From Pseudomonas sp. MN1F (GTDB lineage: Bacteria > Pseudomonadota > Gammaproteobacteria > Pseudomonadales > Pseudomonadaceae), in NCBI RefSeq assembly GCF_009391885.1, contig NZ_VZII01000016.1:1-64000 (forward strand): 64,000 nt of DNA, written 5' to 3'. This document shows positions 29,413 through 53,002 of this stretch, in pieces. The notes beneath the pieces are model-generated. The model ran no database searches, was not told the DNA's origin, and saw only the letters and a list, made by a program, of their open reading frames with translations. Position numbers and translations under genes: made by a program. The number at the start of each line of letters is the position of its first letter. Position 1 is the stretch's first letter.

Positions 29413-29446
29413 GCCATGAAAAAAGGGAGGCCATTGGCCTCCCTTT
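29413..29446 (-). terminator. Orphan intrinsic terminator upstream of the DUF6515 gene
   Basis: An 11-bp stem (29436-29446 with 29422-29432) with a 3-base loop is followed on the minus strand by TTTTTTCATGG. No minus-strand gene lies before it for more than 1 kb, so it must end a transcript starting in the lrp intergenic region. Confidence 0.85.
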
Positions 29447-29655
29447 GAGAATTGTCGTCCGTGCTCGGCACTTGTGGCGCCGGCTCACCTCACAGCGTCT
29501 TCTGGAAGCTGTGTAGCCCGGGGGCCTGCAGATCCTGTTGGATGGCTGGCCGCGACCGCCCGCCTAGGGCGCGTCGCCGTGGACTGATGTCCGGGCAGTG
29601 ATTCTGTGGTTAACGATACGGGAGAGGCGGCGGCACAGGATTGCGAAGATTGCTC
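29413..29655 (-). ncRNA. Candidate small RNA between DUF6515 and lrp genes
   Basis: Inferred from the orphan terminator at 29413-29446 and an extended -10 element on the minus strand (TGCTATTTAT, at about 29658-29667). The 240-base interval can form several hairpins (GGACATCAGTCC; GGCGCC-ACAAGT-GCC) and contains GGA triplets, but I do not recognise a known RNA family. A 63-codon frame inside it uses a TTG start without binding site and is not convincing. Confidence 0.4.
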
Positions 29656-29730
29656 AGATAAATAGCACTTGCGCAATTTTTAACCCTGGATCGATAATTC
29701 ACCGCAATCCGAACAGAAAAGGCCTTTTCC

Positions 29731-48696: not shown

Positions 48697-49302
48697 ATGA
48701 TCAAACGCAATCTGCTGGTAATGGGCCTGGCTGTCCTGCTCAGCGCCTGCGGTTTCCAGCTGCGCGGCACCGGCACCAATGCCCTGAGCGTCAAGGAGAT
48801 GGACGTCAGCGCGCGCAACGCCTACGGCCAGACCGTGGTGCAATTGCGCCAGGTACTTGAGCGCAGTGGCGTCAATGTGCACGCCGGCGCACCTTATCGC
48901 CTGGTACTGACCAACGAGCAGGAAAACTCGCGCTCGGCCAGCTATACCGGTGGTAACCGCACTGCCGAGTATGAACTCACCACCACGCTCAACTACAGCA
49001 TCCTGGGCCTGAACAACCTCGAACTGCTGAGCGACAAGGTAGAAGTACGCAAGGTCTACGTGCGTGACGGCTCCAACATCAACGGCTCCGATCAGGAAGC
49101 CCAGCGCTCGCGCGAAGAGATGCGTCGCGACCTGGTGCAGTCGATGGTCGCGCGCCTGCAACTGCTGAGCCCTGCGCAGCTTGATGAGCTGCAACGCAAG
49201 GCAGACGCACGTGCCAAGGCCGAAGCCGATGCACTGGAGGCAGCGCGCCGCCAGCAGGCGGAAACGCCGCAGCAGTCGCCTCTGGAAGTCCCGGGCAACT
49301 AA
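48697..49302 (+). CDS. lptE: LPS-assembly lipoprotein LptE
   Basis: A 201-residue outer-membrane lipoprotein that plugs LptD. The signal peptide ends in the lipobox LLSAC with Cys18; CGFQLRGTG is the usual LptE start, and SRSASYTGGNRTAEYELTTT and DGSNINGSDQEAQRSREEMR are typical internal segments. The last 40 residues are Ala/Glu/Gln-rich helix. Start ATG 48697 after AAGGGAG. Confidence 0.93.
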   Translation: MIKRNLLVMGLAVLLSACGFQLRGTGTNALSVKEMDVSARNAYGQTVVQLRQVLERSGVNVHAGAPYRLVLTNEQENSRSASYTGGNRTAEYELTTTLNYSILGLNNLELLSDKVEVRKVYVRDGSNINGSDQEAQRSREEMRRDLVQSMVARLQLLSPAQLDELQRKADARAKAEADALEAARRQQAETPQQSPLEVPGN

Positions 49303-49309
49303 GCCCGAG

Positions 49310-49329
49310 CGGGGCACTTCGGTGCCCCG
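49310..49329 (+). other. UUCG tetraloop hairpin between lptE and holA
   Basis: CGGGGCAC-TTCG-GTGCCCCG is an 8-bp perfect stem with the very stable UUCG loop, 10 bases before the holA ATG. Without a T run it is not a standard terminator; it could moderate holA translation or stabilise the upstream mRNA. Confidence 0.55.
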
Positions 49330-49339
49330 CCTGCTCCCC

Positions 49340-50377
49340 ATGAAGCTCGCCCCCGCCCAACTCAACAAGCACCTGCAAGGCAGCCTGGCCCCGGTCTACG
49401 TGGTCAGCGGCGACGACCCACTGCTGTGCCAGGAAGCCGCCGACGCCATCCGCAATGCGGCGCGCCAGCAGGGTTTTGACGAACGCCAGGTGTTCAGCGC
49501 CGACGCCAACTTCGACTGGGGCACCTTGCTGCAAGCGGGCGCCAGCTTGTCGCTGTTCGCCCAGCGGCGCCTGCTGGAGCTGCGCTTGCCTTCGGGCAAG
49601 CCCGGTGACAAGGGCGCTGCGGCGCTCATGGAGTACTGCGCCAGGCCCGCCGAAGACACCCTGCTGCTGATCAGCTTGCCCAAGCTCGATGGCAGCGCGC
49701 AGAAGACCAAGTGGGGCAAGGCCCTGATCGAAGGTGCCCACTGCCAGTTCATCCAGATCTGGCCGGTCGATGCCCAGCACTTGCCCCAGTGGATCAACCA
49801 GCGCCTGTCCCAGGCCGGGCTGTCGGCCCAACGCGATGCCGTCGACCTGATCGCCGCGCGGGTCGAAGGCAACTTGCTGGCTGCTGCCCAAGAGATCGAA
49901 AAGCTCAAGCTGCTGGCAGACGGCAACCAGATCACCGTCGAAACGGTGCAGGCGGCAGTTGCCGACAGTGCGCGCTTCGATGTCTTCGGGCTGGTGGATG
50001 CCATCCTCAATGGCGAAGCCGCGCATGCCCTGCGCATGCTCGAAGGCCTGCGCGCAGAAGGTGTGGAGCCGCCGGTGATTCTTTGGGCGCTGGCCCGTGA
50101 ACTGCGCCTGCTGGCCGGGCTTGCGCAACAGTTCAGCCAAGGTGTGCCGCTGGACAAGGCTTTCAGCCAGGCGCGCCCACCAGTGTGGGACAAACGCCGA
50201 CCACTGGTCAGCAAGGCCCTGCAGCGCCTCTCGGCGCAGCGTTGGGCGCAACTGCTGCAGGATGCCCAGCGTATCGATGCGCAGATCAAGGGGCAGGCCG
50301 AAGGCTCGCCCTGGACCGGCTTGTCGCGATTGGCGCTGTTGATGGCCGGCCAGCGATTGGTACTTCCTTCGCAATAG
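49340..50377 (+). CDS. holA: DNA polymerase III subunit delta
   Basis: A 345-residue clamp-loader subunit that opens the beta clamp. PVYVVSGDDPLLCQEAADAI opens the AAA+-like domain I, ISLPKLDGSAQKTKWGKALI is conserved, and ILWALARELRLLAGL begins the C-terminal collar domain. Start ATG 49340. No clear Shine-Dalgarno is seen apart from the preceding UUCG hairpin, so translation could be coupled or low, in line with the protein's low copy number. Confidence 0.93.
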   Translation: MKLAPAQLNKHLQGSLAPVYVVSGDDPLLCQEAADAIRNAARQQGFDERQVFSADANFDWGTLLQAGASLSLFAQRRLLELRLPSGKPGDKGAAALMEYCARPAEDTLLLISLPKLDGSAQKTKWGKALIEGAHCQFIQIWPVDAQHLPQWINQRLSQAGLSAQRDAVDLIAARVEGNLLAAAQEIEKLKLLADGNQITVETVQAAVADSARFDVFGLVDAILNGEAAHALRMLEGLRAEGVEPPVILWALARELRLLAGLAQQFSQGVPLDKAFSQARPPVWDKRRPLVSKALQRLSAQRWAQLLQDAQRIDAQIKGQAEGSPWTGLSRLALLMAGQRLVLPSQ

Positions 50378-50488
50378 CTGGGGCCGCTTGGCGCCCCAGG
50401 ACCTCAGCCATATATACAATCAATTGGCCCCACCCTGCCTCAAGCCCTAAAGTCCGCCCCGAAAGCCATCCAAGCAGGGAACCCCGCC

Positions 50489-50653
50489 ATGAGCAAAAAG
50501 CCGAAAAAACACGGCCCCAACAAGGCCAAGTCGATCATCGCCCAACCACTGTTCCGCTGCCGCCAGGAACAACCAGAGAAGGGCAAAGGCAGCTACCGCC
50601 GCGAAGCCTTCCAATCGAGAGATTGGGAGGCTTCTTACTTTTTAGCCGCATGA
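50489..50653 (+). CDS. arfA: Alternative ribosome-rescue factor ArfA
   Basis: 54 codons: MSKKPKKHGPNKAKSIIAQP then PLFRCRQEQPEKGKGSY, RREAFQSRDWEASYFLAA. The PLFR-x-R...KGKGSY-x-R...WEAS pattern is that of ArfA, which binds the empty mRNA channel of stalled ribosomes and recruits RF2. AGGGA lies 8 bases before ATG 50489. The reading frame contains a complete intrinsic terminator (50603-50644), so most transcripts should end before the stop codon and be non-stop mRNAs, degraded through tmRNA and translated into active ArfA when trans-translation fails. Confidence 0.9.
   Translation: MSKKPKKHGPNKAKSIIAQPLFRCRQEQPEKGKGSYRREAFQSRDWEASYFLAA
50603..50644 (+). terminator. Intrinsic terminator inside arfA
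   Basis: A 14-pair stem (50603-50616 with 50621-50634; one G-T pair) closed by a GAGA tetraloop is followed by TTACTTTTTAG. It lies at codons 39-52 of arfA, upstream of the TGA at 50651. Confidence 0.85.
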
Positions 50654-50713
50654 AAGCATCGCAAGCGCAGGCATGGTATGGTCGGCACCTGACCTGCAAT
50701 TCTGGATCTGTGC

Positions 50714-52030
50714 ATGCTCTTGAGTCTTCTCCCCCGTTGGAATTCCCGCCAGGTACTCGCGGCCTCCAGCTTCATCCTGCTCGTCGCCTGCGCGGAAAAA
50801 CCTACCGCCGCCGACGCCCTGCCGCTGGCCCCAGCCCAGCCCGCCCCGGTCGTTACCCTGCCTGGCGCCACGCCCGACGTCAGCACTGAAATCCAGCCCC
50901 TGCAAACCTTCGCCCAATGGCAAGCCGGTTTCCGCCAGCAGGCACTGCAGGCCGGCATCGCGTCGAACACCTTCGACCGTGCGTTTCTCGGCGTCACGCC
51001 AGACATGGACGTGATCAAGGCCGACCGCAGTCAGCCCGAATTCACCCGCCCGGTGTGGGAATACCTTGATGGCGCGCTGTCGCCCCTGCGCGTGCGCAAC
51101 GGCAAAAAGTTGCTGGAACAGAACACCGAACTGCTGGCCCGCATCGAGCAGCGCTATGGCGTCGACCGCCAGGCGCTGGTCGCGGTGTGGGGCATGGAAA
51201 GCAACTTCGGCCAGTTCCAGGGCAGCAAGTCAGTGATCCGCTCGCTGGCTACCCTGGCCTATGAAGGGCGCCGTCCACAGTTCGCCCAGGACCAGCTGAT
51301 CGCCGCCCTGCAGATCATCCAGCATGGCGATATCCAGCCTGAGTCCATGCGTGGTTCGTGGGCCGGCGCCATGGGCCAGACCCAGTTCATCCCGACCACC
51401 TACAACACGTATGCGGTGGACTTCGACGGTGACGGCCGCCGTGATATCTGGAACAGCACACCCGATGCCCTGGCCTCGACAGCCAACTACCTGCAAAGCT
51501 CGGGCTGGAAGCATGGCCAGCCGTGGGGCTTCGAAGTGCAGGTGCCAGCAGGCTTCGACTATTGGCAAGCCGATGGCGCGCTGCGCAAGCCGGTCTACGA
51601 ATGGTTGCAGATGGGCGTGAAACTGCCGGCAGGTACCCAGCTGCCAGCGGGCAGCAATGAGCTGTCGGCGGCCCTGCTGTTGCCGGCTGGCGCCCGTGGG
51701 CCGGCGTTCCTGGTGCTGGACAACTTCCGCGCGATCCTCAAATACAACAACTCGTCGTCCTATGCCTTGGCAGTGAGCCTGCTGGGTGATCGCTTCTCGG
51801 GCTGGGGCTTCATCAGCGGCAGCTGGCCGAAGGAAGACCTGCCATTGAGCCGCAGCGAGCGGATGGAGTTGCAGAACCTGTTGAATGCCAAGGGGCATGA
51901 GGCGGGCAACCCGGATGGCATCATCGGGGCCAATACCCGCAAGGCCATCCGTAATGCCCAGCAGGGCCTGGGATGGCCGGCGGATGGCTATCCGACCCAC
52001 AAGCTGCTCGATAGCCTGCGTCAGCGCTGA
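50714..52030 (+). CDS. Lytic murein transglycosylase with C-terminal peptidoglycan-binding domain
   Basis: A 438-residue lipoprotein (lipobox LLVAC, Cys26). The catalytic SLT_2/MltB-type domain spans about 60-350: VWGMESNFGQFQGSKSV contains the catalytic Glu, GSWAGAMGQTQFIPTTYNTY and VDFDGDGRRDIWNSTPDALA are conserved. A PG_binding_1 domain follows (about 370-435; AGNPDGIIGANTRKAIRNAQ). It cleaves murein with 1,6-anhydro end products. Distinct from mltB at 57471. Confidence 0.9.
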   Translation: MLLSLLPRWNSRQVLAASSFILLVACAEKPTAADALPLAPAQPAPVVTLPGATPDVSTEIQPLQTFAQWQAGFRQQALQAGIASNTFDRAFLGVTPDMDVIKADRSQPEFTRPVWEYLDGALSPLRVRNGKKLLEQNTELLARIEQRYGVDRQALVAVWGMESNFGQFQGSKSVIRSLATLAYEGRRPQFAQDQLIAALQIIQHGDIQPESMRGSWAGAMGQTQFIPTTYNTYAVDFDGDGRRDIWNSTPDALASTANYLQSSGWKHGQPWGFEVQVPAGFDYWQADGALRKPVYEWLQMGVKLPAGTQLPAGSNELSAALLLPAGARGPAFLVLDNFRAILKYNNSSSYALAVSLLGDRFSGWGFISGSWPKEDLPLSRSERMELQNLLNAKGHEAGNPDGIIGANTRKAIRNAQQGLGWPADGYPTHKLLDSLRQR

Positions 52031-52063
52031 GGTCATTGGGGCCGCTTGGCGGCCCCGGCGATC

Positions 52064-53002
52064 TCAAAGCTTGAACAGGTCCTGGCCCAACACCAGTGTC
52101 TGCCGCTCACTGTCCAGCCTCACCCAGGCCCCCAGCGGCAAGCACACATTCGGGTCACAATGCCCGCTGCGCCACCCGGCCAGCACCGGCACGCACAGCG
52201 GCCCGAAAGTCTCTTCCAGCAGCGGCGCCAACGCTGCTACGGTAATCCCGGCAAAATCCCCCACCAGCACGCCCTTGATGCCCTCCAGCTTGCCTGCCAG
52301 GCGCAAGTGGGTCAGCAACCGGTCCACCCGATAAAGCGGCTCGTTGACGTCTTCGATGAACAGGATGCAGCCCTGCGTATCAATCTCCGCGACCGTCCCA
52401 AGGGTCGCGCTCAGCATCGACAGATTGCCACCGAGCAGGCGCCCGCTGGCAGCCCCAGGCACCACGCAGTTCAAGGCGAAATCAGCCGGATGGACAATTT
52501 CATCCCCCTCCCCCAGCAGCCCGCCCAGTTGCGCCAGCAGCGATGACTCGGTCGGCTGCAACTTGGCGCCCAACAGGTCGGCATTGAGCATCGCGCCGTG
52601 GAAAGTGAGCAGCCCGGTACGCTGGTATATCGCCGTGTGCAGCGCGGTGATGTCGCTGTAGCCGATCAGCGGCTTGGGGTTGCGGCGGATCAGCTCGAAA
52701 TCGAGCCGATCGAGCAGGCGCATGCTGCCATAACCACCGCGCATGCACAGGATCGCGTCGACCTCGGGATCGGCAAATGCCGCATGCAGGTCCTGCAGGC
52801 GCTGCTCATCGCTACCGGCCAGGTATCCCTTAGCCTCATGAACGCCCGGGTAGATCCGGCAGCGGTAGCCACGCTCGGCGAACCACTGGCCAGCCTTCTG
52901 CGCATCCAGTCGCGCCGGCCCGGCCGGAGCGACGATGGCGAAGCAGGCATTGTCCGCCAGTGCCCTGGGCAAACGGGATTCCGTGGTTTCAGCGCAATTC
53001 AT
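52064..53002 (-). CDS. ldcA: LD-carboxypeptidase (murein tetrapeptide, S66)
   Basis: A 312-residue cytoplasmic serine peptidase that removes D-Ala from murein tetrapeptides during recycling. CMRGGYGSMRLLDRLDFELI leads to the nucleophile Ser in LIGYSDITALH; the Glu in LFIEDVNEPLYRVDR and His in SGHCDPNVCLPLGA complete the triad. Start ATG 53002. Symbol by family similarity. Confidence 0.88.
   Translation of the reverse strand: MNCAETTESRLPRALADNACFAIVAPAGPARLDAQKAGQWFAERGYRCRIYPGVHEAKGYLAGSDEQRLQDLHAAFADPEVDAILCMRGGYGSMRLLDRLDFELIRRNPKPLIGYSDITALHTAIYQRTGLLTFHGAMLNADLLGAKLQPTESSLLAQLGGLLGEGDEIVHPADFALNCVVPGAASGRLLGGNLSMLSATLGTVAEIDTQGCILFIEDVNEPLYRVDRLLTHLRLAGKLEGIKGVLVGDFAGITVAALAPLLEETFGPLCVPVLAGWRSGHCDPNVCLPLGAWVRLDSERQTLVLGQDLFKL

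Follow-up and report, generated by a model that had tools for sequence, protein, structure and literature searches.

The arfA gene of Pseudomonas, which encodes a backup factor for ribosome rescue, is likely held down by two locks. One would be an intrinsic terminator within the reading frame, which leads to tagging of the product by tmRNA; the other would be an ssrA-like C-terminus that the gene itself encodes. As a backup factor, ArfA would probably survive only when the main rescue system fails. These proposals rest on comparison of sequences. The pattern of change across the family indicates that the hairpin and the U tract behind it are under nucleotide-level selection. It also indicates protein-level selection on an Ala-Ala end encoded beyond the predicted terminator, a point that an earlier, sequence-only reading of this DNA had missed.

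The arfA gene and its surroundings

The window, i.e., the whole stretch of 64,000 nucleotides analysed, contains on the + strand a reading frame of 54 codons plus TGA (50489-50653; MSKKPKKHGPNKAKSIIAQPLFRCRQEQPEKGKGSYRREAFQSRDWEASYFLAA). Its product scores 37.4 bits against the Pfam ArfA profile PF03889 (cut-off 25.5, E 1.8e-9, residues 12-40) and contains the KGKGSY core; none of the NCBIfam models matched it. In a search of the whole genome it was the only PF03889 match at E <= 0.001. Judged by profile and core, the window gene is Pseudomonas arfA, the gene of a backup ribosome-rescue factor, and the sequence-only reading was right in taking the 54 codons for arfA.

Near its 3' end the frame contains a terminator-like hairpin (50603-50634, + strand). 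The arms, 50603-50616 and 50621-50634, form 14 pairs, 7 of them G-C and one G-T, and enclose the loop GAGA at 50617-50620. Directly 3' of the stem follows the U tract TTACTTTTT (50635-50643, + strand), an interrupted tract of nine bases with 7 T and a longest run of 5 T. The gene so presents both parts of an intrinsic terminator, a G+C-rich stem and a U tract directly after it. Codons 52-54 (50642-50650, + strand) encode Leu-Ala-Ala, the C-terminus of the read-through protein. Between the U tract and the stop codon TGA (50651-50653, + strand) lie 7 bases (50644-50650); the stop codon would be read only when transcription passes the predicted terminator. A 14-pair stem, a GAGA loop and a T run in frame, with the stop codon a few bases further on, had already been described from the sequence, and the description holds. 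Intrinsic terminators release RNA 7-9 nt after the stem. The 3' end of arfA RNA would be expected at about 50641-50643, in codons 51-52, i.e., just before or within the LAA.

The neighbours, identified by gene order, lie on the + strand too. DNA polymerase III delta (holA, 49181-50377) is encoded 5' of arfA, a lytic murein transglycosylase (50714-52030) 3' of it, and the annotation of P. aeruginosa shows the same order, holA-arfA-lytic transglycosylase. A putative Shine-Dalgarno-like AGGGA stands 5' of the arfA start codon (50476-50480, + strand). Reverse-strand open reading frames of 54, 93 and 127 codons overlap the 3' end of arfA in the window. Among 80 named loci the closest is that of Pseudomonas putida KH-21-134 (L349), with 93.1% over 3.2 kb, which points to a P. 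putida-like species as the source of the window. Elsewhere in the window, Rfam P24, a Pseudomonas sRNA, matches 29424-29676 on the - strand with 232 bits.

Of the 298 genomes searched in the window's genus, 289 have a PF03889 match and 9 have none; the counts are 101 of 119 in the family sample and only 4 of 274 in the class-wide sample. The genera g232 (0/12) and g234 (0/4) gave no match, in a family that otherwise nearly always carries arfA. The comparison set comprises 239 Pseudomonadaceae loci of 17 genera. The 150 from the window's genus are best-scoring plus hand-picked places and thus a non-random choice. The 239 loci stem from 238 genomes, as the genome of L119 carries L172 as a further copy; L042 was excluded as a duplicate of L001. 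Covariation was counted in 236 of the 239 (L024, L085 and L154 left out), and the tail set holds 237, L024 and L154 having no tail by the GGCTT rule. Parsimony counts cover 125 genus loci and 197 of the 199 family loci with a standard tail, and in an all-tail run 234 of the 237; loci with <350 bases upstream are excluded from the trees. The enterobacteria-like order of G555 contributed loci from 30 of its 69 positive genomes, and all of these but L263 and L267, i.e., 28, were used.

ArfA-like genes also turned up elsewhere. The Pseudomonas phage pf16 (KU873925; L365:1453-1596) has an unannotated ArfA-like open reading frame of 47 amino acids with a GTG start. It overlaps the annotated gp199 on the opposite strand, and its stop codon lies within an inverted repeat, AGCTGAATG/CATTCAGCT. 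It would be unusual for a phage to carry a factor for ribosome rescue. In the Salmonella phage Arash (OQ632216, gp99c; L367:523-747) the second part of a protein annotated as 'ribosomal protein L2' is ArfA-like and 54% identical to the pf16 protein. In seven Aeromonas-like loci (L251, L252, L253, L255, L257, L260, L264) the arfA stop lies inside a long hairpin that extends beyond the frame, as folded for L251 only; the full-length proteins of all seven have VCC or VWC at the C-terminus.

The Ala-Ala end

Complete termination would leave the last codons free to vary. They are constrained instead. ArfA ends Ala-Ala at 212 of the 239 loci (LAA 155, MAA 28, VAA 10, and others) and at 67 of 78 named loci (80 fetched), the species of which overlap with the 239-locus set. 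Within the genus each of the four bases occurs at the third position of both Ala codons. Over the 125 loci of the genus tree the last codon shows 0, 0 and 25 changes at positions 1, 2 and 3, and the second-last 0, 4 and 42; the six codons of KGKGSY show 0, 0 and 65. The all-tail run (234/237) gave 3, 4, 42 and 8, 11, 70 for the last two codons. In the bases 3' of the stop, 20-39 changes are counted on the genus tree at each of the positions +2 to +9 and 6 at +1, and the last codon of the upstream gene changes 36, 29 and 45 times.

An antisense or DNA-level element as the cause of the Ala-Ala constraint was considered and rejected, for the third bases change 25 + 42 times and positions 1-2 only 0-4 times. 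The idea that AA ends are common by chance was rejected, too: Ala makes up 13.9% of background codons, which yields about 2% for two of them, and none of 120 upstream proteins, from the 125 loci, ends AA (0/120; the upstream frame is the longest open one at each locus, its identity with holA being presumed in the 120).

Tails of standard length end AA in 192 of 199 cases, those of other length in 18 of 38; a change of length thus often, not always, keeps the AA. The loci without an AA end number 27 of the 239. Twenty of them are among the tails of non-standard length, and 13 of these form one clade with RAC or ARA. This clade, P. mendocina/P. alcaliphila-like as labelled from the named loci (L011-L013, L015-L019, L021, L022, L103, L120, L145), has a longer ArfA tail that ends RAC at 11 loci and ARA at 2; the end in E. 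coli is GAC. Possibly, RAC and ARA represent another C-terminus with the same role as AA. No AA end was seen among the 28 loci from the order of G555 (0/28), nor in ArfA of E. coli, Proteus, Pasteurella, Vibrio and Neisseria. Its absence from the loci of that order implies that the degron is a trait of the family and not intrinsic to ArfA.

The genome has a tmRNA gene; the encoded tag, ANDENYEGYALAA, ends YALAA, and the window ArfA ends YFLAA. C-motif-1 of ClpX is given as LAA, NAA, PAA or EAA (PMC9775585), i.e., a C-terminal xAA, typically LAA, as it is found in the window ArfA. LAA is a common end of ssrA tags; the variants in use include LVA and AAV (PMC9382460).

It is unlikely that Ala-Ala serves the activity of ArfA, by binding in the mRNA channel or by recruitment of RF2, instead of its degradation. 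The constraint on Ala-Ala does equal that on KGKGSY. However, residues 1 to 53-55 of the E. coli protein are described as fully functional without the tail (PMC3989591), the two residues that precede LAA vary freely as amino acids, and 18 of the 38 tails of other length have kept Ala-Ala (20 have not). Some of the exceptions, LVA and AV ends, moreover resemble ssrA variants that serve as degradation tags (PMC9382460). The Ala-Ala constraint past the predicted terminator is a testable sign that read-through yields the protein often enough to be of consequence.

The hairpin and the U tract

By itself, the window gene is moderate evidence for the hairpin; the case is carried by the comparative data. 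The segment 50585-50655 folds with -30.4 kcal/mol (z = -4.1), and none of 200 shuffles was as stable. Under synonymous recoding of arfA the z of the minimum free energy is only -1.4, with 178/2000 as stable. An equally good hairpin arose in 97/5000 recoded genes, and in 4/5000 the 9 bases behind it also contained 6 T or more. The inverted repeat is in part dictated by the amino-acid sequence (REAF...WEAS). A simple terminator scan of 49000-52500 was uninformative, with 4 sites vs 3.3 +/- 1.9 in shuffles; the arfA site has 14 pairs, the remaining ones at most 7.

Across the family, the stem core AAGC(C/T)...GGCTT is present at 236 of the 239 loci. Pairs 1-5 form in all of the 101 distinct hairpin segments (101/101), and pairs 1-4 are uninformative because they are invariant. 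Double-sided changes occur at pairs 7-11 in 6, 12, 7, 26 and 9 of these segments. At positions 6-9 the arms of one and the same sequence pair in 96.3%, as against a mean of 89.7% and a maximum of 91.7% in 300 swaps of arms between sequences. Of the distinct segments, just 76% form pair 12 and 55% pair 13. In P. aeruginosa (L364; the record is labelled plasmid and also carries holA) arfA is built of the same parts as in the window: GAAGCCTCCCGTAACTGGGAGGCTTC, then TTTCGTTATGGCGGCC and TGA, the protein ending Val-Met-Ala-Ala. The compensatory changes in Pseudomonas hairpins which the sequence-only reading had named as a check are thus there, and the near-universal core disposes of its reservation that the hairpin might not be conserved.

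In the U tract, the third codon counted from the GCT that closes the stem ends about 7 nt behind the stem, and its last base is T in every one of the 147 distinct genus genes (147/147), where 27.3 would be expected. The same T is found in 67 of 70 distinct genes from the seven further genera represented by 5 loci or more (12/12, 12/12, 10/11, 10/12, 11/11, 7/7 and 5/5); smaller genera, which account for 16 of the 237 tails, are outside this test. Because the genes are related, binomial p values of this test overstate the case, and the parsimony counts are safer. On the genus tree (125 standard-tail loci) this codon, number -4, shows 0 changes at its third base and 12 at its first; on the family tree (197 loci) the third base changes twice. 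The choice of codons points the same way. The 147 distinct genus genes use 141 TTT and 3 TTC for Phe in the tail vs 27 and 216 in the gene body, the background of TTT being 14%, and of the 132 genus loci with a Ser behind the stem 90 encode it by TCT (background 3.3%). Fixation of T at silent sites is hard to ascribe to a constraint on the protein; it is what a terminator requires. The tract is weaker in some genera, 12 nt containing on average 5.0 T in g8 and 5.2 in g239 vs 6.9 in g1, and the NTT codon is absent in g240 (0/3) and g245 (0/1).

Could the hairpin chiefly be a processing site of an endonuclease, RNase III, as in E. coli, with termination playing a minor part? RNase III processing needs a long duplex of ~20 bp or more, a figure that partly also comes from PMC13159725. 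The stems of the family fall short of it: the longest uninterrupted stem measures 10-15 bp at 203 of the 239 loci, 16 or 18 bp at only two and <10 bp at 34, including all 11 of g244, where mismatches break it. In E. coli, Proteus, Pasteurella and Vibrio, arfA folds with ~20 or more pairs. In favour of RNase III, an additional outer pair (pair -1) is possible in 41 of the 101 distinct segments. The P. aeruginosa hairpin has been described as shorter than known RNase III substrates (PMC13159725). RNase III does cut arfA of E. coli (PMC3989581, PMC3989591), but its cleavage leaves the silent-site fixation of U after the stem unexplained, and we consider such a role in the family quite improbable. 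It is very improbable, finally, that an ordinary terminator at the end of the gene just happens to overlap the last codons, with ArfA made from full mRNA and a non-regulatory end: the T run does stand right at the stop codon in some relatives, e.g., Proteus mirabilis, and the scan score by itself is not above chance, but the tract lies before the stop, in frame and with the same spacing, in 199 of the 237 tails and 13 of the 17 genera, and E. coli ArfA and BrfA are precedents for the in-frame position. The comparative data favour an in-frame intrinsic terminator and place the predicted 3' end of the RNA within a few bases.

How ArfA may be kept off

The first lock would be the terminator. Lying within the frame, it would end most arfA mRNAs ~7-9 nt after the hairpin and before the stop; ribosomes would stall on the non-stop mRNA, and tmRNA would tag the product (...YALAA) for ClpXP. 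The second lock would come into play when RNA polymerase reads through, e.g., if the hairpin is blocked by a ribosome close behind. Translation would then reach the stop codon, and the read-through ArfA would end in its own ssrA-like C-terminus, LAA here and mostly xAA in the family, and be destroyed. Termination would take the degron off, and tmRNA, taking over the ribosome, would add one; after read-through the degron would come from the gene. Degron-free ArfA would appear only when ArfA-RF2 or ArfB, not tmRNA, releases the stalled complex. Termination in vivo, tagging by tmRNA and degradation of ArfA by ClpXP are what we infer. If true, the rule for keeping a backup rescue factor off is a simple one: the same degradation tag on every normal route.

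Whether ArfA also responds to an overload of ClpXP, and not just to loss of tmRNA, is conceivable, yet doubtful. The product that ends at the stop codon and the tmRNA-tagged product would share their fate and would queue for ClpXP with all other tagged proteins. Stalled ribosomes would flood ClpXP with such proteins, ArfA-LAA would be spared, and rescue would shift to the backup path.

Comparison with known systems

An in-frame terminator in arfA is of a known kind, with precedents in E. coli and in BrfA. The stem-loop of E. coli arfA has been described as both terminator and RNase III site; tmRNA represses the gene, the full-length ArfA is unstable, and two C-terminal Asp residues stabilise it (PMC3989581). 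E. coli arfA (YhdL) shares with the window gene the family, the KGKGSY core and the in-frame stem-loop before the stop, which in E. coli goes along with a non-stop mRNA. It differs in its longer stem, its longer hydrophobic tail, which ends GAC and lacks a short xAA, and its 3' end, which is convergent with mscL. The interpretation of arfA as self-terminating is partly supported; it is right for the most part but less novel than stated. That a terminator does the truncation fits the conservation of hairpin and U tract, their selection as expected of a terminator, and a stem that is short for RNase III; overdrawn was the contrast with E. coli, to which a mere RNase III-type hairpin had been ascribed.

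The hairpin in arfA of Neisseria gonorrhoeae was reportedly shown to act as an intrinsic terminator in the 2012 work of Schaub. Its sequence fits a terminator: like the window gene, it has an in-frame hairpin and a T run (GTCCCGCCGTTTTT). Unlike there, the fold has 17 pairs, partly formed by the T run, the run is uninterrupted, and the protein has a long tail that ends RRSL, without AA.

For BrfA of B. subtilis, an in-frame terminator was demonstrated by reporters (PMC6881298). An in-frame intrinsic terminator that gives rise to a non-stop mRNA, as proposed for the window arfA, is thus a feature of BrfA. According to its authors, however, BrfA has no evolutionary relation to ArfA, and the part of the article consulted makes no mention of an encoded degron (PMC6881298).

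In P. aeruginosa itself, ArfA is credited with a hydrophobic C-terminus and a predicted hairpin in a review of 2026, which, in the part consulted, states that there are no published data on what the shorter hairpin entails (PMC13159725). A term search in the main text of a 3'-end study of P. aeruginosa (PMC8297930) gave no mention of arfA. In the literature searched we identified no proposal of an encoded ssrA-like end of ArfA; a prior mention is possible in Chadani 2011, Garza-Sanchez 2011 and Schaub 2012.

A further likeness is to the tmRNA tag and C-motif-1 of ClpX, with which the window ArfA shares the C-terminal LAA (YALAA in the tag, YFLAA in ArfA). Unlike that of the ssrA tag, the LAA of ArfA does not come from trans-translation but is read from the final codons of arfA itself. 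As far as the literature searched goes, what is new is this short-stem form, spread over the family, with its encoded ssrA-like end.
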